DNA from: Arenicellaceae bacterium
GTDB lineage: Bacteria; Pseudomonadota; Gammaproteobacteria; Arenicellales; Arenicellaceae
Length of the DNA: 64,000 nucleotides
Assembly (NCBI GenBank): GCA_029246505.1
Contig: JAQWNC010000002.1
Coordinates: forward strand, 1-64,000
Reading direction: 5' to 3'
Under the pieces are notes generated by a model that made no database searches, was not told where the DNA came from, and worked only from the letters and a program-made list of their open reading frames with translations. Of the stretch, positions 3,281 to 16,971 are shown in pieces. Position numbers and translations under genes: made by a program. Within the stretch, counting starts at the first letter, position 1. Each line of letters begins with the position of its first letter.

Positions 3281-3775
3281 ATGCTTAAGCTGTTAGATGC
3301 CATAAGCGCTTTGACCGGGCGAGTACTCATATGGCTTATTTTCGGCGTAATGATCTTTACTTGCGCAGTGGTATTTATGCGCTATGTATTAGGTAATAGC
3401 GATGTAACCTTTTATCAGGAACTTGTGATTTACTCGCACGCATCGGCATTTATGTTATCTGCCGCTTGGACACTTAAGCGTGACGGGCATGTGCGTGTAG
3501 ACGTGCTTTACCGTTCCATGGGTGTTCGATCAAAAGCGTGGGTCAACATTATTGGGGCTTTGGTGTTTTTGCTACCGGTCTCGATATTCCTGTTTTTTAC
3601 TAGCTTTGAATTTGCCAGCCACTCCTGGGCTATACAAGAAGCTTCGGGTGAAGCGGGTGGAATACCAGCAGTGTTTTTACTTAAAAGTGTTATTCCTTTA
3701 GCATCACTTTTTCTGATTATTCAAGGTCTTGCAGAAGTGACACGTAACACCCTTCTGCTGTACAAAACTGGATAA
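3281..3775 (+). CDS. TRAP transporter small permease (DctQ family)
   Basis: This 164-residue protein has four predicted membrane helices, at about 12-35, 45-65, 88-108 and 130-150. Its sequence suits a DctQ-type subunit, including the conserved FMRYVLGNS after the first helix and LYRSM between helices 2 and 3. It forms the membrane complex with the large permease that starts six bases downstream, so the two are co-transcribed. The subunit stabilises the large permease in Na+-driven uptake of organic acids. The matching binding protein is encoded convergently. Confidence 0.9.
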   Translation: MLKLLDAISALTGRVLIWLIFGVMIFTCAVVFMRYVLGNSDVTFYQELVIYSHASAFMLSAAWTLKRDGHVRVDVLYRSMGVRSKAWVNIIGALVFLLPVSIFLFFTSFEFASHSWAIQEASGEAGGIPAVFLLKSVIPLASLFLIIQGLAEVTRNTLLLYKTG

Positions 3776-3781
3776 CTTCTA

Positions 3782-5143
3782 ATGCTTGAGTGGCTTCCAA
3801 TTTTTATGTTTGCAGGGGTCTGTGGCGCTTTGCTATTGGGCTACCCGGTAGCGTTTACCTTGGCAGGGGTTGCCTTACTGTTCGCGTCTGGTGGGATTCT
3901 TACGGACAACTTTGATCCAGCATTACTAAAAGTAATGCCGGAACGAGTATATGGCACGATGAGTAACCAGACCTTAATCGCAGTGCCATTGTTCGTCTTG
4001 ATGGGCATCATGCTAGAGCGTACGGGATTAGCTGAGCGGTTGCTGGACACCATGGCGCGACTTTTTGGTAGTTTATCAGGAGGGTTGGGTTTTTCAGTGG
4101 TGGTGGTAGGTACGTTGTTGGCAGCTAGCACCGGTATCGTCGGTGCTACGGTTGTGGCTATGGGGCTAATGTCCTTGCCTAGTATGTTAAAACGCGGATA
4201 CGATCCGAGTTTCGCTGCCGGTACGATTTGTGCAACCGGCACGTTAGGCCAAATAATTCCTCCTTCGATCGCACTGGTTCTTCTGGGGGACGTATTGTCT
4301 AATGCATATCAGCAGTCGCAGATACGCTTGGGTATATTTAATCCGAAAACTATATCGGTAGGTGATTTGTTTGTTGGTGCGTTACTCCCCGGACTCTTAT
4401 TGGTTTTTCTCTATTTGACGTATGTTTGGTTGAGAAGCTATTTGAACCCATTTGATGCACCAGCGCAAAAAGATGTCCACAAGGTTTCAACTTTCGAAGT
4501 TTTATCAAGTCTGCTGCCTCCAATTGGGCTTATGGTATTAGTGTTGGGCTCCATCATTATCGGTATTGCCACACCTACTGAGGCTGCTGGGGTAGGGGCA
4601 ATTGGGGCAACTTGTCTGGCTCTGTTCTCAAGAAGGTTATCTTTCGCAGTGTTTCAAGAGGTGCTGGTTAAGACATTACAAATGACTTCTATGGTTTTTC
4701 TGATTCTGATAGGGGCTTCATTTTTCTCCCTAGTTTTTAGAGGGTATGGGGGTGAAGAATTAGTTCAATCACTATTTGAGCAGTTGCCAGGAGGAGCGTT
4801 CGGCGCCATGCTGCTAGTTATGGCTGTAGTATTTTTACTAGGGTTCATTCTCGATTTTATCGAGATTACTTTTGTGGTCGTGCCTATAGTGGGGCCAGTA
4901 CTTCTTATTATGGGTATTGATCCGGTGTGGTTGGGAATAATGATAGCTATCAATCTACAAACCTCTTTCTTGACTCCACCATTTGGTTTTGCTCTGTTTT
5001 ATCTTCGTAGTGTAGCGCCAGAGAGCGTTAAAACGATTGATATTTATAAAGGCGTAATTCCGTATATTGGAATACAGCTTTTTGTTTTGGCTATGCTTGC
5101 TCTATTTCCGGTAATTGTTACCTGGTTACCGAGCTTAATGTAG
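3782..5143 (+). CDS. TRAP transporter large permease (DctM family)
   Basis: This 453-residue very hydrophobic protein has roughly a dozen membrane helices and the expected DctM length. Recognisable stretches are the N-terminal LLGYPVAFTLAGVALLFA, the glycine-rich TGIVGATVVAMGLMSLP, GTLGQIIPPSIALVLLGD and the C-terminal LTPPFGFALFYLRS. It is the ion-coupled transport channel of a tripartite ATP-independent periplasmic transporter. It follows the small permease with a six-base gap. Substrate cannot be read from this subunit; the nearby TakP-like binding protein suggests 2-oxo or hydroxy acids. Confidence 0.93.
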   Translation: MLEWLPIFMFAGVCGALLLGYPVAFTLAGVALLFASGGILTDNFDPALLKVMPERVYGTMSNQTLIAVPLFVLMGIMLERTGLAERLLDTMARLFGSLSGGLGFSVVVVGTLLAASTGIVGATVVAMGLMSLPSMLKRGYDPSFAAGTICATGTLGQIIPPSIALVLLGDVLSNAYQQSQIRLGIFNPKTISVGDLFVGALLPGLLLVFLYLTYVWLRSYLNPFDAPAQKDVHKVSTFEVLSSLLPPIGLMVLVLGSIIIGIATPTEAAGVGAIGATCLALFSRRLSFAVFQEVLVKTLQMTSMVFLILIGASFFSLVFRGYGGEELVQSLFEQLPGGAFGAMLLVMAVVFLLGFILDFIEITFVVVPIVGPVLLIMGIDPVWLGIMIAINLQTSFLTPPFGFALFYLRSVAPESVKTIDIYKGVIPYIGIQLFVLAMLALFPVIVTWLPSLM

Positions 5144-5299
5144 ACGATTTTTGAACTCTTTTATGGCGGGGTCTAATTCAAGGTAAGATCAAGAAGGTAA
5201 GGGGGGGTCAAGCCGTGAGGGTATTAAATTGAGCTACCTATAACAACAACCCAGAGCTATAAACTTAACTCGATATTATAATATAATTTAGATTAGGTG

Positions 5300-6466
5300 T
5301 TAATTGTAATCCCTTGTTATATAATATTCTTTTTCTGAAATATCATGATATTTCCTAACGGTTATTTGGAAATTGTTGTACGATTCATAGATCTCTGCAA
5401 ATTGCTCATCTTGAGCTGCTAATTCGGCATAATATTCTAGTGCGACTTCATTTAGGTATTGTAGAACTTCCCGGGGCAGGGCTTTCGGTGTAATACCAAA
5501 ATTTGATTGTAAATTTTGTAGGGCAGTAGCATTTCTGGCGGTATATTCATCCAGTGTATCTTGATTGATTGCTCTAGCAGCAACTTCGATAATTGCTTGT
5601 AAATCTTTTGGAATCGAATTCCACTTATCTTCATTGACTATAAATTCAAGCATGGCGCCAGGCTCGTGCCAGCCAGAGTGATAGTAATGCTCGGCTACTT
5701 CGTGAAGCCCAAAGGATATATCATTGTATGGGCCAACCCATTCAGTGGCATCAATAACTCCGGTTTGCATGCTGGTATATAACTCGCTACCAGGAATGGT
5801 CACACTGGTACCGCCAGCTCTGGAAAATACTTCACCGGCTATCCCGGGTATGCGCATTTTGAGACCTTGCAAATCATCTATGGACCTAATTTCTTTCTTA
5901 AACCAACCGCTCATCTGTATGCCAGTGTTACCGCCAGAAAAAGGTATCAAGCCAAAAGGCTTATAAACAGTGCGCCAAAGCTCCAACCCCCCGCCATAAT
6001 GTATCCAAGCGTTTATTTCCTGGGCATTCATGCCAAATGGAACCGAGGTAAAGAATGGGCTTGCGGGAATCTTACCTTTCCAATAGTAAGCTGATCCGTG
6101 TCCCATCTCTACGCTACCGTTACTAACTGCGTCAAAAATTCCTAATGCTGGTACCAATTCACCGCTGCCATAAACCCTAATTACGAGTCGCCCATTACTC
6201 ATACGCTCAACTAATTTGGAAAACCTCTCGGGTGTCATACCAATGCCAGGGAAATTTTTGGGCCATGTTGTAACCATGCGCCATTCGTATCGTTGTCCGA
6301 GAGAGCCGGGCTCACCATCAATCTGCTTATTGATACTTGTTGATCTAGGAGAGTAGTCTACCGCGCGTTGTTGAACGTATAGTCCGCTTACGCCTACCAA
6401 AGCGGCTAATAATATGACGACCACGATAGAGAGTGTTCCTATCGGGGAGCTACTCGATATAGACAT
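5300..6466 (-). CDS. TRAP transporter substrate-binding protein, TakP-like (DctP family)
   Basis: This 388-residue protein has an N-terminal membrane segment at about 11-30 that acts as a signal peptide or anchor. A DctP fold follows: WRMVTTWPKNFPG, GSGELVPALGIFDAVSNG, GNTGIQMSGWFKKEI, LKMRIPGIAGEVFSRAGG and ATEWVGPYND. These stretches are very close to those of TakP, the 2-oxo-acid receptor of Rhodobacter. The Arg in MRIPG and the Glu-Trp in ATEW match the TakP ligand/cation site as I remember it. A monocarboxylate such as pyruvate, lactate or a branched-chain keto acid is the likely ligand, by inference. It faces the permease genes convergently, with 156 bp between them, so receptor and channel are transcribed separately. 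Confidence 0.9.
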   Translation of the reverse strand: MSISSSSPIGTLSIVVVILLAALVGVSGLYVQQRAVDYSPRSTSINKQIDGEPGSLGQRYEWRMVTTWPKNFPGIGMTPERFSKLVERMSNGRLVIRVYGSGELVPALGIFDAVSNGSVEMGHGSAYYWKGKIPASPFFTSVPFGMNAQEINAWIHYGGGLELWRTVYKPFGLIPFSGGNTGIQMSGWFKKEIRSIDDLQGLKMRIPGIAGEVFSRAGGTSVTIPGSELYTSMQTGVIDATEWVGPYNDISFGLHEVAEHYYHSGWHEPGAMLEFIVNEDKWNSIPKDLQAIIEVAARAINQDTLDEYTARNATALQNLQSNFGITPKALPREVLQYLNEVALEYYAELAAQDEQFAEIYESYNNFQITVRKYHDISEKEYYITRDYN

Positions 6467-6518: not shown

Positions 6519-9500
6519 CTAGGACAATGGTTTTATAACGAACACAAGGTCACCGGCATTAATTTGAGATCCAGGTGCTTGATTTATTCGCACCACTTCA
6601 TGCTTAATATCATTGTTATAAATATCCGAGCCAGCGTTGATACTGGACAAACTTAACTGAGTAAAAATCTTCATGGCTTCAATCTGACAAATGGTTTGAT
6701 CGAACTCAATAACATCGCCTACTTTAACGTATTCAGGTTCTGACGGTGAGGGTGTGGTGTAGAAAATACCTGTCATTGGTGAATTAACCCGAAGTTCGTC
6801 TGAACCTTCAATCCGAACAGTACTTTGGTCATCACCGATTTGTTCAAGGCCAGTATCAGCCATTTTTTCGATTAATTTATCACCGTCAATTCGGGCTAAC
6901 ATTTGTGGAAGGTAGCCGGTATCGTATTTTCCTTTTTGGAATACAGAATCTGAAAGTATCTGGTTTAAAAGTGCCAGATTTGTACAAACGCCAGTAATCT
7001 TGATTTTATTGAGTACTTCAATTAAACGTAAAACTGCCTTTTTACGATTAGTAGCGTGCACAATTACTTGAGCAATCATGCTGTCGTAAAATGGTGAAAT
7101 CGTTTTACCTGAGCCTACTGATGACAATATTTCAATATCATCCCCTTCGGGAAAGCTGCATTCAACGACGTTACCTGGAGTAGGGGAAAAATCAATTCCC
7201 CCTGTTGCCGTGTAGACCGCTTTCTCAGCAGTCACTCTAGCTTCGATCGAGTACCCATTGGCTACCGGTTTCAACTCCTTTATGCTTTTACCGGAGGCGA
7301 TCCGGTATTGCTCACCGACGATAGAGATTCCAGTCGTCCATTCAGTTACTGGGTGCTCGATCTGCAATCTTGTATTCATTTCCATGAAATAGATAGAGTT
7401 GGACGGTAAATCGTAGATAAATTCTACAGTACCAGCACCAATATAATCCACCGCATCGGCTAGGTTTCCAGCACAGCGATAGGCCTCTTTTTCCAGCTTG
7501 GCAGGAAGCATGGTAGAAGCTGATTCCTCAATGACCTTTTGATTGTTGCGTTGCACGCTACAATCGCGCAGACCTAGTATGAGCTTATTTCCATGGCTAT
7601 CGCGCAGAATCTGGACTTCTATATGGCGCATGGATTCAACAAATTTTTCGAGGTATAGGTCTCCGTTACCAAAGGCTGCCCGCGCTTCTGCCCGCACTTT
7701 TTGAAATGCCTCTTTTATTTCAGCATCGCTGCGTACGATCTGAATTCCTTTGCCACCGCCCCCGTGCACTGCTTTTAGCAGTACTGGGTAACCAACTTCA
7801 TTTGCGACTTTAGCTGTCGCGTCCGCCGACGTTAGAATCCCGTAGCTGCCTGGCACCACGGGTACGTTATTCGCCATTGCCGTATGAATAGCGTTAGATT
7901 TATTCCCCATGATTTCCATGCTCAGAGCATAGGGCCCGATAAAATTAATTCCGTGCTCACGGACTAACCGTGCATACCGCTCATTCTCTGAAAGGAAGCC
8001 GATACCAGGGTGTATCGCATCTACTTCCTGGCGATCTGCAATTGCTAAAACGCTGTGTGCATTCAAATAGCTTTCATCCGAGGTTTGGCCGCCCAGAGAG
8101 ACCAGTGTGTCTTGCTTACGCATCATGTCGGCTGGTACGGAGTTCATGTCGGGATCAGATTGAACTAATACCACATCAATATCGTTTTCCTGTGCTATAC
8201 GAATGAGTTTGCTCGCTGTGCATCCTCTAGCATGGATTAGGACCTTTCGTACTGGCTTAAACTGATTGGTATTTTGCGATTCTTTTAACGAGTCATTTGT
8301 CGGCTGCTGATCGGGTAAGTATGAGCCCGCTATTACACGCTTAACGACATCTTCTACCGAATCACTCGGTACCGGTATGCTTGGATCGACTTTGCTCAGG
8401 CGCTCATCAAGGTCGCCTGCGAATGGATGCTTTACTAAGCCCTGCATAGCATCGCTATTATTCTTAAAATAATTTGCGATGGTATTTTGAGATGGTAAAA
8501 ACGATGGCACGACAACCCTGCCGGCAAAAGGCATATCAGCCCCACTAAAGTAGTATGTGTGAACCAATGGGTGGGTAACAAAGCTGGCTTGTGAGCCACC
8601 CGTGCAATCACCGAAACCAAAGATAATTACTGGTAAATCGTTATCTCGTATAAATCGGGTAATTCGGTCATTTGTTACCGGCATCGAAAATAAAGCATTC
8701 GGCCCCTCTTTAGTTTGCATGCCGCCGGACGAGACAAAACATATCACTGGTAGTCGTCTAGCGGCGCAATGCACTAGAAGCTTGCATAGCTTGGTGGCGC
8801 CGGCCATATCAAACGCCCCGGCCTGAAAAGATATGTTAGATATAAATACACCAACTTTTCGGCTTTTATCAGCCTCCAATTTTGCGGTTCCCGTTACCAC
8901 GCCACAGGGTGTGACTTTATTCGACAAAGCCTTTTCAACTGAAAGTCGAAACCCCGGAAAATTCATCGGGTTTGAGGTGATCAATTCGGCGTCTAATTCT
9001 TTAAAGTGTTTAAAAAATTTCTCTTGTATTGCATCAACGGTAGTTAAGTTTTGGCTCTTAATATCACGAACAACACGTTGAATACGCATGCTTACCGATG
9101 CAATGGCAAGTTGATTCCAGAAATCTTTACGCTTACCAATATGTACCGGGTTTACAGTGCCATCAAATTCTTTACTATTGTTGTTCGCTGCAAAATACCG
9201 AGGCAACAGACTTTCGAAAAAGAATGTAATTAATACTAGTAGAGCATCTGAAAGGCGCGGGAAGGCGATACGTTTCCATTCTTCCACGTCTTTTAAGAAT
9301 TCTCCTCGGCGCTTAAATGACATGAAAAATATGAGCCAGGATGAAAACTCTGTAGAACTACTCGGGCCGTCTCCGGTGACTATACTGGTGGCCTGCTGCA
9401 TTGAATCATCTAGTAACCGCTTCATAGTATCGGCAGAAAGGGTGTGAAAATTTTCTGTTTCAGCAGCTATTTCATTTAGATTATCTACAAACGTGTTGTA

Positions 9501-11066
9501 GAGCGTATCGAATATTAGAACGTTCTGAAAGTCAGCAATTAAGGTCTCACGCAGTTCTGGAGAGAACATAAGCTCACGCAGACTCAAATCTGCTAAACCA
9601 TGGCCGAATAAGTCATCATCTCTTATTTCGTCACCACTAGATCTAAGGATGGTCTCCTTGAGGCGGCTAAAATTAAATGGGGCAGAGCCTTTCCATTGGT
9701 TATATAAATATAAGCCGATACTTGAACAAAGCTTGCGGCGTGCCTCTTGGTAATTCTTGCCGGGCTCACCCAATATTAGTTTAGCCAGTCGATTTCTATC
9801 GGCACCAAGCTCGTTTCTACGCTGCACAAACCCTTTAAAAGCTTTACATATAGTGTCTATGTAGATTAATTTTTCTGAATCGTCATACCATTGGGTAAAA
9901 GCAGCCTCTTGAGATTTTAGTGTCCGTTGTTCTAAATCCCCTTTAGGTAGTTCTTCATTTGCCAAGCGACCATATGCACTTATATTGGTTGCAGATATTC
10001 GTCGTCGTAAGCCTATATAACGCAGGTATCGACAGCTATGCCCAAATACTCCTGGGAATTGACTGGACCCCTTGGCTGAAGACAGAGAATCTATCTCTGA
10101 CAGAGTTTTTAGCGCGGGCGAAGGATGCACAAAGCGTTTAACGCTGCGTTGGTAGTGCCGCATTATCTCTGGATGCTCTACGGTGAAATTAGCGGAAGCT
10201 TTTTCAATACTAATAATAGCCGAAGTAATGCTTTTTAGCAGTTTACCTATATTGTCTTGATCATTCTCCGGACACCAACGAACAACCCCATCGATAGATC
10301 TGCGCTTTGCTAATTCCCAGGATGATAAGCCAACATAGCGGGCGCTTTCTTGCCATGATAGACCGTACTGTCTCGCGATACTTGCGAGGCCCTGTGGCTG
10401 TATTGTGTTGAAAACACCAGTTTCGAGCGCTAATAATACATTGGTAGAGGCCAATGGGATTGCGCCACCTGAGTAGCCCAACCCATAAATTATGCCTACG
10501 GTAGGAACATGTGTATTGCACATTTCAGCGATAAGGCGAGAAATAGAATGAGCTTGATTAGCGACATTTGCCTCTGCACCAGCGTCAGCACCTGGTGTGT
10601 CAATAAAGGTGATTATGGGTACTCCATGATCACTAAAGTCACGTACGATTTTTACCGCATCGAGGTGATTTTGCGGTTTCCACACGCCATTATTAACCTC
10701 TCGATTTTGAGCTAGAAAGCCAATTCTTCGGATGCCATAGGGCATTTCAATATCGATTTCTGCTGCGTACAAAGCCTCATCTTTATGTTCATGAATAGTT
10801 TTGCCAGGAATTGCTTCGATCACCTTGGCCGCACTCAGGCGTTTCTTGACTTCGGCGGGTTCCAGAACGGCAGCGATGTACCTATCTACATCTAATTGAC
10901 TCAGCTGCTGGACACGTTTGTTGATATAACCTGCACTTGCAAGCCCTTCGATCGGCGAGGCGATGCTCGGTGATGTTTCACCCTGGAAAAGACTGTAATC
11001 GCTGGCTAACTGCTCGGCGGCTTGAAATAATTCATCTGGAGTATATTTTTGAGTTTTGTTCGCCAT
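6519..11066 (-). CDS. Single-chain acyl-CoA carboxylase: CT-alpha, CT-beta, biotin carboxylase and biotin carrier domains
   Basis: This 1515-residue protein would catalyse both half-reactions of a biotin-dependent acyl-CoA carboxylase. In order: an AccA-like carboxyltransferase half at about 80-300 (FIDTPGADAGAE, YGLGYSGGA, ISRLIAEM); a helical linker of about 400 residues with no domain I recognise; an AccD-like half at about 715-905 (CGVVTGTA, FVSSGGMQTKEGP, GGSQASF) without the AccD zinc ribbon; an ATP-grasp biotin carboxylase at about 935-1390 (HPGIGFLSEN, HGGGGKGIQIV, EMNTRLQIEHPVTEW); and a biotin carrier with IEAMKIF, lysine near 1465. CT-alpha, CT-beta, BC, BCCP differs from the usual BC-first order of single-chain carboxylases. 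The acyl-CoA substrate (acetyl, propionyl or longer) cannot be assigned. birA lies immediately upstream on the same strand. Confidence 0.93.
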   Translation of the reverse strand: MANKTQKYTPDELFQAAEQLASDYSLFQGETSPSIASPIEGLASAGYINKRVQQLSQLDVDRYIAAVLEPAEVKKRLSAAKVIEAIPGKTIHEHKDEALYAAEIDIEMPYGIRRIGFLAQNREVNNGVWKPQNHLDAVKIVRDFSDHGVPIITFIDTPGADAGAEANVANQAHSISRLIAEMCNTHVPTVGIIYGLGYSGGAIPLASTNVLLALETGVFNTIQPQGLASIARQYGLSWQESARYVGLSSWELAKRRSIDGVVRWCPENDQDNIGKLLKSITSAIISIEKASANFTVEHPEIMRHYQRSVKRFVHPSPALKTLSEIDSLSSAKGSSQFPGVFGHSCRYLRYIGLRRRISATNISAYGRLANEELPKGDLEQRTLKSQEAAFTQWYDDSEKLIYIDTICKAFKGFVQRRNELGADRNRLAKLILGEPGKNYQEARRKLCSSIGLYLYNQWKGSAPFNFSRLKETILRSSGDEIRDDDLFGHGLADLSLRELMFSPELRETLIADFQNVLIFDTLYNTFVDNLNEIAAETENFHTLSADTMKRLLDDSMQQATSIVTGDGPSSSTEFSSWLIFFMSFKRRGEFLKDVEEWKRIAFPRLSDALLVLITFFFESLLPRYFAANNNSKEFDGTVNPVHIGKRKDFWNQLAIASVSMRIQRVVRDIKSQNLTTVDAIQEKFFKHFKELDAELITSNPMNFPGFRLSVEKALSNKVTPCGVVTGTAKLEADKSRKVGVFISNISFQAGAFDMAGATKLCKLLVHCAARRLPVICFVSSGGMQTKEGPNALFSMPVTNDRITRFIRDNDLPVIIFGFGDCTGGSQASFVTHPLVHTYYFSGADMPFAGRVVVPSFLPSQNTIANYFKNNSDAMQGLVKHPFAGDLDERLSKVDPSIPVPSDSVEDVVKRVIAGSYLPDQQPTNDSLKESQNTNQFKPVRKVLIHARGCTASKLIRIAQENDIDVVLVQSDPDMNSVPADMMRKQDTLVSLGGQTSDESYLNAHSVLAIADRQEVDAIHPGIGFLSENERYARLVREHGINFIGPYALSMEIMGNKSNAIHTAMANNVPVVPGSYGILTSADATAKVANEVGYPVLLKAVHGGGGKGIQIVRSDAEIKEAFQKVRAEARAAFGNGDLYLEKFVESMRHIEVQILRDSHGNKLILGLRDCSVQRNNQKVIEESASTMLPAKLEKEAYRCAGNLADAVDYIGAGTVEFIYDLPSNSIYFMEMNTRLQIEHPVTEWTTGISIVGEQYRIASGKSIKELKPVANGYSIEARVTAEKAVYTATGGIDFSPTPGNVVECSFPEGDDIEILSSVGSGKTISPFYDSMIAQVIVHATNRKKAVLRLIEVLNKIKITGVCTNLALLNQILSDSVFQKGKYDTGYLPQMLARIDGDKLIEKMADTGLEQIGDDQSTVRIEGSDELRVNSPMTGIFYTTPSPSEPEYVKVGDVIEFDQTICQIEAMKIFTQLSLSSINAGSDIYNNDIKHEVVRINQAPGSQINAGDLVFVIKPLS

Positions 11067-11295: not shown

Positions 11296-12279
11296 TTAGA
11301 CCAATCGAAGACTGTACTCAGGATCAACAATCCGGGCTTCTTCAAGATTAGAGTTTTTAATTACCAGGGACCCTTGTGCATCAACACCTGTTACACGGCC
11401 GACCACTTGTAGCCTGCCTTTAGTCGCGATTACGTCGCAGTTCTGGAATAAATGAAGACTGTGCCAGCGTTCGGAATAGGGTGCAAAGCCGTACGATTGA
11501 AATTGCTCACACAGATTTACCCAGTTGTTAACAAGATCTGCAATTAAATGATTTCGATTGAGGTTTTTATGGCCCGCTGTATATAGATCTGTACATTCTT
11601 GATCAATCGCCTGCTGGTCTTTGGCACTGATTTTTATATTTAGTCCGATACCGCAGTTGAGGCGTACTTCGGCACCTGAGTCCCCTTTAATATTTATCAA
11701 AATACCACCGATCTTCGCCCCATTTAGATATAGATCATTGGGCCATTTTAATTGCAGCCCTTTAACTCCTAAATTTCCCAAAACATCGGCGACCATTACA
11801 CCGGTAGCGAGACTAAATGCCGTAATGTCTGTTGGCCAAACAGGAAACTGCCACGCTAGCGAGAGCATAATGTTCTGGAATGGTGTACTGATCCAATTAT
11901 TAGAACGCCTTCCTTTGCCGAGATTTTGTACTTCGGTTGTGACAAACCCTGTTTGCCCAGCATTCAAGAAAATTGACTCAATTTGACTGTTGGTTGAGTC
12001 CATTACGATATGCACTTTCGATTTGGCTAGTTTTGAAATCGTAGATTGGTTTAACAGTTGTAAAATCGAATCCTGATTCAGTGGGGTAAATCCTTTTTGT
12101 AAGCGATAGCCAGTCGCTGCTTTTGTTTCTACAGGGAGCCCAGCAGCTTGCATTACCCGCAAACGCTTACCGATAGCCACTCGACTCATCCCCAATAAAT
12201 CTCCCAGTTGATTACCACTTAGGTAGCTATCAGTAGAAGATAGTGCAGCGATAATCTTGTGATCTTTTGTATCGAACAT
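11296..12279 (-). CDS. birA: Bifunctional biotin-protein ligase / biotin operon repressor BirA
   Basis: This 327-residue protein has an N-terminal winged-helix domain at about 8-65 (LSGNQLGDLLGMSRVAIGKRL). The catalytic domain includes GKGRRSNNWISTP, the biotin-binding GRGRRGR-equivalent loop, followed by KWPNDLYLNGAKIGGILI and the C-terminal SH3-like part. It makes biotinyl-AMP, transfers biotin to the carrier lysine (EAMKI in the carboxylase next door) and, as a dimer, represses bio genes. The HTH domain means it can act as a repressor, and a matching operator lies in front of bioB. It is divergent from bioB and upstream of the carboxylase on the same strand, with 229 bp between. Confidence 0.95.
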   Translation of the reverse strand: MFDTKDHKIIAALSSTDSYLSGNQLGDLLGMSRVAIGKRLRVMQAAGLPVETKAATGYRLQKGFTPLNQDSILQLLNQSTISKLAKSKVHIVMDSTNSQIESIFLNAGQTGFVTTEVQNLGKGRRSNNWISTPFQNIMLSLAWQFPVWPTDITAFSLATGVMVADVLGNLGVKGLQLKWPNDLYLNGAKIGGILINIKGDSGAEVRLNCGIGLNIKISAKDQQAIDQECTDLYTAGHKNLNRNHLIADLVNNWVNLCEQFQSYGFAPYSERWHSLHLFQNCDVIATKGRLQVVGRVTGVDAQGSLVIKNSNLEEARIVDPEYSLRLV

Positions 12280-12437: not shown

Positions 12438-12469
12438 TAGTAAACTGCGGCTGTATAAATAGTTTACTA
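12438..12469 (+). promoter_or_regulatory. BirA operator overlapping the bioB promoter
   Basis: TAGTAAACT (12438-12446) and AGTTTACTA (12461-12469) are perfect 9-bp inverted repeats with a 14-bp spacer. The half-site core GTAAAC / GTTTAC matches the known BirA half-site TTGTAAACC. TATAAAT inside the spacer (12454-12460) is a plausible -10, so bound BirA would cover the promoter. The site ends 13 bp before the bioB ATG. With bifunctional birA transcribed divergently, this gives the classical biotin feedback loop. Confidence 0.8.
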
Positions 12470-12482
12470 ATGATATGTGTTT

Positions 12483-13457
12483 ATGAATGATCAAGTAGTG
12501 GCATTAGATTTACCTGCAAGTGGTTTGCTTTATAGTGAAGATGCGGTAATTGAGTTGTTCGCGTTGCCATTTTTGGAGCTTGTCTTTAAAGCGCAATCAG
12601 TTCATCAAAAGCATTTTAAAGATTCGGGTATTCAGTTAAGTACCCTGATGAGTGTCAAAACCGGCGCTTGCCCGGAAGATTGTTCATACTGTCCTCAAAG
12701 CGCACGATATAAAACTGGGTTAAAAGTTGAGCAGCTCAAACCTATAGATGAAATCATAGCCGCTGCAAAAGCTGCTAAAGCCACTGGTGCGACACGGTTT
12801 TGTATGGGAGCTGCGTGGCGCAGTCCTAAGCAAAAAGATATTAACCATATGGTCAAAGCAATAGAAGCAGTTCGGGCCGAAGGCTTGGAGACTTGCGCAA
12901 CGTTGGGTATGTTAACACCGCATCATGCGGCTGAGCTTGGTGCGGCTGGCCTCGATTATTACAATCATAATCTTGATACATCCCTAGAATTTTATTCTGA
13001 AATAATTACAACCCGTACGTATCAAGATCGCCTGGATACACTTGAGAATGTGCGTAGTGCGGGTATGAAAGTGTGTTGTGGTGGTATTGTTGGCATGGGT
13101 GAGGGACAAAAGGACAGAGCGGGCTTGCTAGCAACACTTGCCAACATGGACCCTCAACCTGAAAGTGTACCGATTAATAATTTGGTTAAAGTTGAAGGTA
13201 CGCCACTAGAAAACGCTCAAGAGCTCGACCCTTTGGATTTTGTGCGAACCTTGGCAGTGGCACGTATTCTTATGCCACGTGCACGTGTGCGTTTGTCAGC
13301 GGGCAGGGAGCAGATGAGTGATGAGATGCAGACCTTGTGTTTTATTGCAGGTGCAAATTCTATTTTTTATGGCGAAGAGTTACTCACTACCGGTAATGCC
13401 ACACCAGAACACGATCGTGGCCTGTTAAAACGTTTAAAACTAGAGGTTTCAGCCTAG
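12483..13457 (+). CDS. bioB: Biotin synthase BioB
   Basis: This radical-SAM enzyme inserts sulfur into dethiobiotin. The SAM-cluster cysteines are in [12 protein letters not shown] (C63, C67, C70 from the ATG). The family's [31 protein letters not shown] and RLSAGREQM segments are all present, the last holding the arginine that binds the second FeS cluster. Length (324 residues) is normal. I chose ATG 12483; a GTG two codons earlier is possible and there is no strong ribosome site for either. It is the first gene of bioBFHCD, directly behind the BirA operator. Confidence 0.97.
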
Positions 13458-13506
13458 CTTTCAGCTGCCACGAGAATCTTTGCGATTTAATTGCATTATA
13501 GCTTAG

Positions 13507-14685
13507 ATGGATTGGTCAAATTGGTTGGCTGAGCAGCAGCTCGCACGACAAAAGGGGAATTTGCAGCGAAACAGATTCGCATACTCAGGTCGACAAGGAA
13601 GTATTTTATCCGTCGGTGAAAGCCAATTTATAAACTTTAGTAGTAACGATTATTTGGGCTTGGCCGGTCATCCAGCATTGTCACAAAGTTTGGCTGAATC
13701 TGCTGCCGTGAATGGTGTTGGTAGTGGCGCATCACATTTAGTTTGCGGACATAGTGAGATTCATCAACAACTGGAAGCGGCTTTGGCAGCGTTTGTGGGA
13801 GCAGAGCGTGTGCTTTTATTATCCTCGGGATATATGGCAAATATTGGTCTACCGCAGGCATTAACCAGCCGAGATGACTTAATCTTAAGCGATCGACTGA
13901 ATCATGCTTCTCTGATAGATGGCATTCGCTTAAGCCGGGCTAAAAAACGTCGGTTTCGCCATTGTGATATTGAGCATGCGCAGCTTCAGGCTGAACAACA
14001 GAAGTTTAGTCGTTGTCTGGTCGTGACTGATGGTGTATTCAGTATGGATGGTGATATTGCACCCATTCAGGAGCTTCGTCTTTTGAGCAACAAAAATAAT
14101 GGATTGTTGTTAGTTGATGATGCGCATGGATTGGGTGTGGTCGGTTCAGGCGGGCGGGGTAGCCTATATGCGAGTACTGCAGGTGGTGAATTTATCGACT
14201 TTGAGAGTGTCCTGTTGATGGGAACGTTGGGTAAAGCTTTTGGTTGTTATGGTGCATTTGTGGCGGGTAACGCGAATCTAATAGAGCATATTTCTCAAAG
14301 CTGTAGAAGCTACATATACACAACAGCACCACCGCCTGCTATAGCCGCCTGTGCCTTATCTGCTTTGGAATTAGTAAAACAGGGGGAATTGACAAAAAAT
14401 CTGCACACGAATATCCAGTATTTCGTTAGCCAGGCTAAAGCATATGATTTGCCAATCCTGACATCTTCTTCAGCCATTCAGGTATTACTGGTAGGAGACA
14501 ATATCAGAGTTATGAACCTATCAAACATGCTCAGAGATAAAGGCTTTCTGGTTGGCGCCATTCGGCCGCCTACTGTTCCCGAAGGTACCGCTCGGTTGAG
14601 GATAACCTTGTCAAGCACGCACAAGGTAGAACAAATTGACCGACTCCTGATTGAGCTAAGAAAAGCGATGGATGATGAGTTATGA
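13507..14685 (+). CDS. bioF: 8-amino-7-oxononanoate synthase BioF
   Basis: This 392-residue PLP enzyme condenses pimeloyl-ACP (or -CoA) with alanine. It shows the family's INFSSNDYLGLAGHP, the His/Asp cofactor contacts (DRLNHASLIDG, LVDDAHGLGVVG) and the Schiff-base lysine near residue 244 in GTLGKAFGCYG. It starts 49 bp after bioB, and its stop overlaps the bioH start (ATGA), indicating translational coupling. Confidence 0.96.
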   Translation: MDWSNWLAEQQLARQKGNLQRNRFAYSGRQGSILSVGESQFINFSSNDYLGLAGHPALSQSLAESAAVNGVGSGASHLVCGHSEIHQQLEAALAAFVGAERVLLLSSGYMANIGLPQALTSRDDLILSDRLNHASLIDGIRLSRAKKRRFRHCDIEHAQLQAEQQKFSRCLVVTDGVFSMDGDIAPIQELRLLSNKNNGLLLVDDAHGLGVVGSGGRGSLYASTAGGEFIDFESVLLMGTLGKAFGCYGAFVAGNANLIEHISQSCRSYIYTTAPPPAIAACALSALELVKQGELTKNLHTNIQYFVSQAKAYDLPILTSSSAIQVLLVGDNIRVMNLSNMLRDKGFLVGAIRPPTVPEGTARLRITLSSTHKVEQIDRLLIELRKAMDDEL

Positions 14686-15452
14686 CAGATATTTGCTTGT
14701 TACATGGGTGGGGGGTAAATCGTGCTGTTTGGCAGGGTATTGAAGATTTCTATGCGGCGTATGGCCGCGTAAGGACTATTGATTTACCTGGTTACGGCAA
14801 GCGTTCCAACGAAACATTTCCAGATCAATTAGATTTGGCGGCACAACAAATAGCGGAGGAAATGCCGGTAGATTCAATCGTTATCGGCTGGTCACTCGGC
14901 GGGACATTAGCTCTGTATATACAGTCAGCCCGGTTAGTGCAGATTCGCGCGCTTCAGCTAATCGCGGCAACACCGAAGTTCGTACGTTCACAAAACTGGC
15001 TGGCCGGTCAACAGCCGGAGACATTTGCAAAGTTCTTATTGGATTTTAAGGGTGATTACCTTACGGCGCTGCGGAGGTTTATATCGTTGCAGTTGCACGG
15101 AGACTCGATGAACTCAGATCAATTAGAAAACTGGATGGATAAGCTAAATGTTTACCCCGAACCAAGTAAAACAACACTAATTAATGGGCTTAACGTTTTA
15201 AATAAAACCGATCTTCGTAAAGATTTAGCGCTGATCAATATCCCAACTCATATCGTTTATGGTAAACGCGATCGAGTTTGCCACCCTAAAGCGAATATTT
15301 ATTTACACGAATCAATTGCTAACAGCCAATTATCTGAATTTAATTGCGGGCACCTGCCATTTTATTCGTGCATAGCGGAGTATAAAACGCACACAGGGTG
15401 TTGGTTGGAGTCATTAGGTTTATTAAATTCGGCAGAATCAGAATGCATTTAG
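14682..15452 (+). CDS. bioH: Pimeloyl-ACP methyl ester esterase BioH
   Basis: This alpha/beta hydrolase of 256 residues removes the methyl group from pimeloyl-ACP methyl ester. It has the HGWGVNRAVWQG oxyanion region, the nucleophile elbow GWSLGG at about 71-76, an Asp region (VYGKRDRVCHP) and the late His in CGHLPFYS. The start overlaps the bioF stop by 4 nt. Its position between bioF and bioC supports BioH over other hydrolases. Confidence 0.93.
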   Translation: MTDICLLHGWGVNRAVWQGIEDFYAAYGRVRTIDLPGYGKRSNETFPDQLDLAAQQIAEEMPVDSIVIGWSLGGTLALYIQSARLVQIRALQLIAATPKFVRSQNWLAGQQPETFAKFLLDFKGDYLTALRRFISLQLHGDSMNSDQLENWMDKLNVYPEPSKTTLINGLNVLNKTDLRKDLALINIPTHIVYGKRDRVCHPKANIYLHESIANSQLSEFNCGHLPFYSCIAEYKTHTGCWLESLGLLNSAESECI

Positions 15453-16306
15453 ACGCAAATACACCTCAGGAAAATTTAGCTACTCTTTATGACGCTGAAG
15501 CAATTCGGGCACATTTTGGTGCTGCCGCGAAGCACTACGACGCTTTTTCTTCGATCCAACAAATCACAGCCAATCATCTTACTGAGCTTATTCCGCATAC
15601 TACGGCAAATATAAAAAATGGAATATTGCTTGATTTAGGCTGTGGTACAGGATCAACCGTACAGAATTTTTATCGTGAATACCAAGGCCATTGTATTGGT
15701 TTGGATTTAACCTATCGAATGTTGAAAAATGCGCATGGCTTAAGCAGTGCTCTACAAGCCGATATGCAACAACTTCCTCTTCAGGCGCAAAGCATTGATT
15801 TATTGATATCAAATTCGTCATGTCAATGGGTGGCACCTAAACTGGTGATTGCTGAAATTCAAAGAGTGCTCAAACCAGGTGGTTATGCTTTTATTAGTTT
15901 GTTTGTTGACGGCAGTTTGCCAGAATTAAAACAGAACTTATCACTGCAGCACCGAATGCAAAAACTGCCTTCTGAAAGTCTCTGGTCAAAAATAATTAGG
16001 GAGACAGATTTATTTCTCGAGTATGAGGAACAGAAGCTGCATCTACAAGAGTTTGTTACGTCAAAAGCGCTATTTGATTCTATTCGAGGGGTAGGTGCCT
16101 CTATTTCCCCTGAGCGACACAAATACCTAGGTAAGAAAACGTACAAAGCTATGTTGTCTGACGAAGGCAATGAAAAGAAACTTAGCTGGCGGACGCTTTA
16201 TCTAGTTTTAAAAGCGCCTGCTATCAAAACTGCTATCAAAACAATTGGTGTTGAAATGATTGCTGAAGGCATGACTGAAACTAACTCTATATTCAAGGTC
16301 GGCTAA
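15443..16306 (+). CDS. bioC: Malonyl-ACP O-methyltransferase BioC
   Basis: This SAM-dependent methyltransferase starts pimeloyl synthesis by methylating malonyl-ACP. The SAM-binding motif is LLDLGCGTGSTVQNF, and ISNSSCQWV and EIQRVLKPGGYAFISLF follow as expected. I start it at ATG 15443 (MHLDANT), overlapping the end of bioH by 10 nt; an upstream ATG at 15398 would add 15 residues with no family likeness. About 287 residues. It ends in a TAATG overlap with bioD. Confidence 0.93.
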   Translation: MHLDANTPQENLATLYDAEAIRAHFGAAAKHYDAFSSIQQITANHLTELIPHTTANIKNGILLDLGCGTGSTVQNFYREYQGHCIGLDLTYRMLKNAHGLSSALQADMQQLPLQAQSIDLLISNSSCQWVAPKLVIAEIQRVLKPGGYAFISLFVDGSLPELKQNLSLQHRMQKLPSESLWSKIIRETDLFLEYEEQKLHLQEFVTSKALFDSIRGVGASISPERHKYLGKKTYKAMLSDEGNEKKLSWRTLYLVLKAPAIKTAIKTIGVEMIAEGMTETNSIFKVG

Positions 16307-16971
16307 TGAATGGATGTTTTATAACCGGAACCGATACGGGTATTGGTAAAACCTATATTGCGAGTTCCTTGTTAAGGGAATTAAAAGTGTTGGGCGTGAA
16401 GGCGGCGCCATTTAAACCAGTAGTTAGTGGTATGGATGAAAATGGCATTAATAGTGATATTCAATCGTTAATTCTGGCCTCCGGTTTTTCCGGGAATGTA
16501 GAAGAAGTGTGCCCTTACGTATTCAAACCTGCGATAGCACCACATATGGCGGCGGAGTTGGCTGGTGAGTCGATAGCACTGCCGATAATACTAAGTGCGT
16601 TTAATCGTCTGGCGACAAGTTATGAAACAGTTATTGTCGAAGGAGCGGGGGGCTGGAGAGTACCTATTTCTGGGGATCACGATATGCAGTCGCTGGCAAT
16701 TGCCCTAAATTTACCAGTAATTGTGGTGATAGGTATTCGGCTGGGATGTATTAATCATGGACTTTTGACCTTGGAGTCGGTCGTCCGGTCCAATGTTCCC
16801 ATTGCAGGGTGGATAGCCAACCACTTAGAAGGTCGCAGTAATGTGGCTGAAAAAAATGTAGAAACATTACGAACACGCAGTCCGATAAGTCTATTGGGCG
16901 AATGCGCGTATGAAAGTAGCGATATTGGTTGGGCACCCGAATTTAATTTAGCGGAATGGATTGATAGCTAG
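16306..16971 (+). CDS. bioD: Dethiobiotin synthetase BioD
   Basis: This 221-residue ATP-dependent enzyme closes the ureido ring of dethiobiotin. The P-loop GTDTGIGKTY lies at the N-terminus, followed by FKPVVSG and the VEGAGGWRVPI segment. It is the last gene of the bio operon and its ATG shares one base with the bioC stop. The operon lacks bioA, so the aminotransferase that makes the BioD substrate must be encoded elsewhere. Confidence 0.95.
   Translation: MNGCFITGTDTGIGKTYIASSLLRELKVLGVKAAPFKPVVSGMDENGINSDIQSLILASGFSGNVEEVCPYVFKPAIAPHMAAELAGESIALPIILSAFNRLATSYETVIVEGAGGWRVPISGDHDMQSLAIALNLPVIVVIGIRLGCINHGLLTLESVVRSNVPIAGWIANHLEGRSNVAEKNVETLRTRSPISLLGECAYESSDIGWAPEFNLAEWIDS

Follow-up and report, generated by a model that had tools for sequence, protein, structure and literature searches.

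The gene at positions 6519-11066 on the minus strand of the window, by which we mean the whole 64,000-nucleotide stretch of DNA that was analysed, is very probably an orthologue of accS from Shewanella oneidensis, and hence a gene for a homodimeric acetyl-CoA carboxylase (ACC) that provides malonyl-CoA to type II fatty-acid synthesis. The encoded protein is thus a further member of the AccS/AccADCB family, which has already been named, studied genetically and solved structurally. The gene, the parts of its product and the biotin-related features beside it are as follows.

6519..11066, minus strand: accS/accADCB, probable single-chain acetyl-CoA carboxylase of 1515 amino acids (intact ORF and full-length match to PDB 9kkm)
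10197..10709, minus strand: AccA-like carboxyltransferase (CT)-alpha core, amino acids 120-290, with an oxyanion-type glycine pair at amino acids 200-201 (PF03255; E. coli AccA, 31%)
8997..10169, minus strand: helical linker domain, amino acids ~300-690 (AlphaFold model and 9kkm match)
8511..9011, minus strand: AccD-like CT-beta core, amino acids 686-852, with a glycine pair at amino acids 823-824 and without a zinc ribbon (TIGR00515; E. coli AccD by BLASTP)
6891..8252, minus strand: biotin carboxylase (BC) domain, amino acids 939-1392 (PRK08591, 481 bits)
6525..6788, minus strand: biotin carrier domain, amino acids 1427-1514 (PF00364; AccB, 44% identity)
11296..12279, minus strand: birA, helix-turn-helix (HTH) plus biotin protein ligase (PF03099, PF08279), upstream of accS across a 229-base gap
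12477..16971, plus strand: bioB-bioF-bioH-bioC-bioD operon (Pfam), divergent from birA-accS, with names taken from family and gene order
12438..12469, unstranded: candidate BirA operator, a 9-base inverted repeat TAGTAAACT-N14-AGTTTACTA with perfectly matching arms, lying shortly upstream of bioB

The ORF begins with ATG and runs for 1515 codons with no internal stops. Searches with Pfam, NCBIfam and BLASTP against E. coli K-12 proteins agree on the domain order A-linker-D-C-B in one chain, which confirms the arrangement given in the initial annotation, wherein an AccA-like half is followed by an AccD-like half and both precede the biotin carboxylase and carrier. The first half is indeed AccA-like, as indicated by the Pfam ACCA match (amino acids 120-290, E 7.8e-27) and by the alignment with E. 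coli AccA (amino acids 125-262, 31% identity, E 2e-18). At amino acids 113-231 the protein also matches Carboxyl_trans, over positions 294-416 in the C-terminal half of the profile. The AccD-like half is recognized by NCBIfam accD at amino acids 686-852 (E 1.3e-10, 41-44 bits, under its cut-off) and by E. coli AccD at amino acids 746-829 (25% over 84 residues, E 2e-5). The remaining domains are found with Biotin_carb_N (amino acids 939-1048), CPSase_L_D2 (1056-1264), Biotin_carb_C (1275-1387) and Biotin_lipoyl (1427-1472), and with E. coli AccC (941-1391, 39%, E 2e-101) and AccB (1427-1471, 44%, E 3e-11). The two CT halves are not canonical separate AccA and AccD proteins, given that they reach only 76 of 319 bits and 41 of 317 bits with the respective NCBIfam models and lie in one fused ORF.

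A fused ORF of this kind could in principle be an assembly or annotation artefact that unites separate genes. Nothing was found in favour of this explanation. We assign it practically no probability, and it is ruled out by independent homologues: the one-ORF layout is present in all 80 independent loci, a few of which end at contig edges, and a protein of 1517 residues with the same layout has been solved.

That solved protein is PDB 9kkm, entered as 'Acetyl-CoA carboxylase multifunctional enzyme AccADCB' and 1517 residues in length. In a phmmer search of solved structures, residues 4-1514 of the accS product align to 9kkm 10-1515 with 1609 bits and an E-value of 0. The entry title describes an acetyl-CoA carboxyltransferase holoenzyme dimer from Shewanella oneidensis; the structure is of mutant E1238A and was released on 2025-11-19. 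It follows from organism, name and length that this protein is SO_0840, the 1517 amino acid AccS that is reported to replace AccABCD in S. oneidensis (PMC4793157). AccS has been described as an ACCase with several domains, arranged in an order unlike that of eukaryotic ACC (Xu et al. 2024, PMC11602165). It is seen as a biotinylated band of ~170 kDa, and E. coli accA, accD and accBC, supplied together, relieve the impaired growth seen at low accS expression (PMC11602165). By its own standard, the initial annotation would not hold for a well-described enzyme with a known substrate; 9kkm, PMC11602165 and PMC4793157 show that the protein belongs to an enzyme already described, S. oneidensis AccS/AccADCB, to which acetyl-CoA is assigned as substrate. 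Its 'permuted' CT order does differ from that of PCC-beta and eukaryotic ACC, but it is not new, being the order of AccS/AccADCB. The word applies only if fused CTs, PCC-beta for instance, are taken as the reference, since the same A-D layout would also arise if separate genes were fused with accA ahead of accD. For the window protein, acetyl-CoA specificity, the dimeric state and an essential role would be expected by analogy with the S. oneidensis orthologue.

The genome from which the window is taken (2.64 Mb, 97.5% complete) was searched for other ACC genes, as the initial annotation had advised. ACCA, Carboxyl_trans and Biotin_carb_C each find the accS ORF and nothing else, and there is no separate accD or accB above cut-off, such that no separate copies of the four genes are found. 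In this genome, the four-gene ACC is replaced by accS. Because the genome has no other ACC, the earlier designation 'acyl-CoA carboxylase' stands with regard to carboxylase and is narrowed to acetyl-CoA carboxylase. The genome carries another biotinyl protein (contig C25, ~3545-3757), which was assigned by eye as oxaloacetate decarboxylase alpha-like and adjoins an OadB-like gene. It is the only other biotinyl-type protein recognized there, lipoyl-type dehydrogenase components aside.

We also considered whether the accS product might be an acyl-CoA carboxylase with another main substrate, such as propionyl-CoA or a longer acyl-CoA, and be unrelated to fatty-acid initiation. The CT halves have diverged from E. 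coli AccA and AccD, and it is general knowledge from PCC and ACC that few changes can shift CT specificity. However, with the only CT and the only BC gene of the genome assigned to another substrate, acetyl-CoA carboxylation would be missing. Moreover, E. coli ACC stands in for the orthologue in S. oneidensis, and ketoacyl synthase genes adjoin accS in some relatives (as the gene immediately upstream in 7 of the 39 loci sampled). A different main substrate is therefore quite improbable.

The catalytic parts of the preferred enzyme, a single-chain ACC, are well conserved in a family alignment of 80 members that includes the window protein. All nine E. coli AccC active-site residues that were checked are kept in 80/80 members, and both CT glycine pairs are likewise invariant (80/80). 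The biotinyl lysine is amino acid 1466 (bases 6669-6671, minus strand), located within EAMKI, and it is kept in 78 members while the remaining two have gaps at the site. The carrier domain also contains a TPSP segment that resembles the thumb of E. coli AccB. A point against the assignment is the AccD-like half, which is divergent, falls below the accD cut-off and has no four-cysteine zinc ribbon of the AccD type, but this is so across the whole family, and none of the 80 members has the ribbon. Given that the catalytic residues are conserved across the family, the ordinary two-step reaction is expected for the accS product. BirA would attach biotin to Lys1466, and the BC domain would then carboxylate this biotin with ATP and bicarbonate. 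The C-terminal carrier would swing to the predicted active site made up of the two CT halves, and there the carboxyl group would pass to acetyl-CoA to yield malonyl-CoA for type II fatty-acid synthesis. Such swinging-carrier steps are general to biotin carboxylases.

The least familiar part of the protein is the linker between the CT halves (amino acids ~300-690). There are no matches to Pfam families in this region of the window protein and nothing convincing in 41 relatives. The commonest weak match was to LepB_N (6 of 42 sequences, best E 0.0014), and these scattered hits were rejected as helical noise. The long helical linker proposed in the initial annotation is borne out by an AlphaFold model that is all-helical, with a moderate mean pLDDT of 74.8 over a model of more than 400 residues. 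When a linker profile was compared with PDB sequences, only 9kkm was matched (E 9e-176). Foldseek and VIA-align searches with this moderate-confidence model also gave 9kkm as the only real match (residues 291-675, VIA-align Z 31.3), and the runners-up (Foldseek E 0.3, Z 4.0) are at the chance level for helical models, although similarity to further folds may escape a model of this size and confidence. No match to eukaryotic ACC was found for the linker. Thus, the absence of a Pfam family agrees with the earlier view of this region as unassigned, but its structure has already been solved.

We infer that the linker most likely serves as a scaffold that sets the positions of the BC domains and of both CT halves within the dimer. 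Another possibility is that the enzyme is the same but the linker does more than this and regulates or targets it, for example through membrane or partner binding. The linker is long, it has no family match, and its 441-residue stretch retains 35 invariant columns across 42 sequences. In addition, 39 of the 80 aligned members carry an insertion of ~115 residues after window amino acid 481, which yields chains of ~1640 residues; these include Thalassolituus, Bacterioplanes and Oleispira, and loci L043, L046, L047 and L049-L060 among others. Nevertheless, dimer packing explains the conservation equally well, and residues 291-675 are ordered in 9kkm. There is no sign of the targeting role suggested earlier, and no targeting domain was recognized. 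We therefore consider a role beyond scaffolding unlikely. Slightly less likely again is the specific proposal that the linker is a regulatory or docking module peculiar to AccS, further elaborated by the ~115-residue insertion in one branch. If this were true, these bacteria would control ACC in a way that the four-subunit enzyme does not show.

BirA here has an HTH domain, and therefore may repress the bio operon via the candidate operator at 12438-12469, where a pattern scan finds agreement with the E. coli-type operator at 14 of 18 positions. The tie to birA proposed earlier holds in that birA adjoins accS in the window, but none of the 80 related loci, of which 72 include at least 2 kb of upstream sequence, yields a birA-like match, and coupling to birA was rejected as a family trait. 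The bio operon is located within 5 kb of accS in only two of these loci (L011, L012). For biotin supply the birA/bio layout makes sense, but it is local. An AccR/LysR gene was likewise rejected as the usual neighbour of accS, as it is found in only 1 of 39 sampled upstream genes. Downstream of accS, at 3281-6466, are genes for a TRAP-type transporter, comprising small and large permease-like ORFs on the plus strand and a DctP binding protein on the minus strand. This accS-DctP-permease neighbourhood is retained in an 83%-identical relative (L010).

There are 32 genomes with an accS homologue in which standalone accA was sought; it is absent from 27 and retained in five. Strict replacement of accA by accS is thus not universal. 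An ordinary accA is found in most of the 274 sampled genomes of the class, and two near-complete genomes in this sample (G137 and G203) have no ACCA matches. Homologues of accS also occur in metagenome-assembled genomes labelled Desulfuromonadales/Desulfuromonadaceae, SAR324 and Deltaproteobacteria (L034, L035, L029, L042 and L061). These labels, being outside the Gammaproteobacteria, extend the range past the gammaproteobacterial genera of the published description. Standalone accA is also present in the genomes of L029, L034 and L035, and it is not found in those of L042 and L061. The gene described here extends a small known family to an uncultured lineage whose genome appears dependent on the accS product for malonyl-CoA. 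This may be of interest for ACC evolution or for ACC-directed antibacterials, while the overall picture is unchanged.

Among known systems, the closest is S. oneidensis AccS/AccADCB (SO_0840; PDB 9kkm, 9w4a). It has the same A-linker-D-C-B order, a nearly equal length (1517 versus 1515 amino acids) and end-to-end homology that includes the linker, and it is likewise the ACC of its genome. However, the two proteins differ at many positions of the full-length alignment, and the context here is birA plus the bio operon whereas accS in Shewanella is transcribed away from accR, a gene for a LysR regulator (PMC11602165). All four components of the heteromeric E. coli ACC (AccA, AccB, AccC and AccD) are recognizable in the window protein, which keeps the BC active site, the CT glycine pairs and the biotinyl lysine. 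The E. coli enzyme is made of four proteins and has the AccD zinc ribbon, whereas the window protein is one chain with no ribbon and an extra helical domain. Eukaryotic single-chain ACC also unites both CT halves with BC and biotin carboxyl carrier protein (BCCP) in one polypeptide, but in the order BC-BCCP-CT and with the AccD-like half ahead of the AccA-like half, an order that is reversed here. PCC/MCC-type carboxylases and partly fused bacterial ACC catalyse the same chemistry, and their BC and CT folds are homologous to those here. Unlike the window protein, they have CT on separate chains, as with the Chloroflexus BC-BCCP fusion (PMC11077971), and the PCC/MCC CT beta chain places the AccD-like half first.
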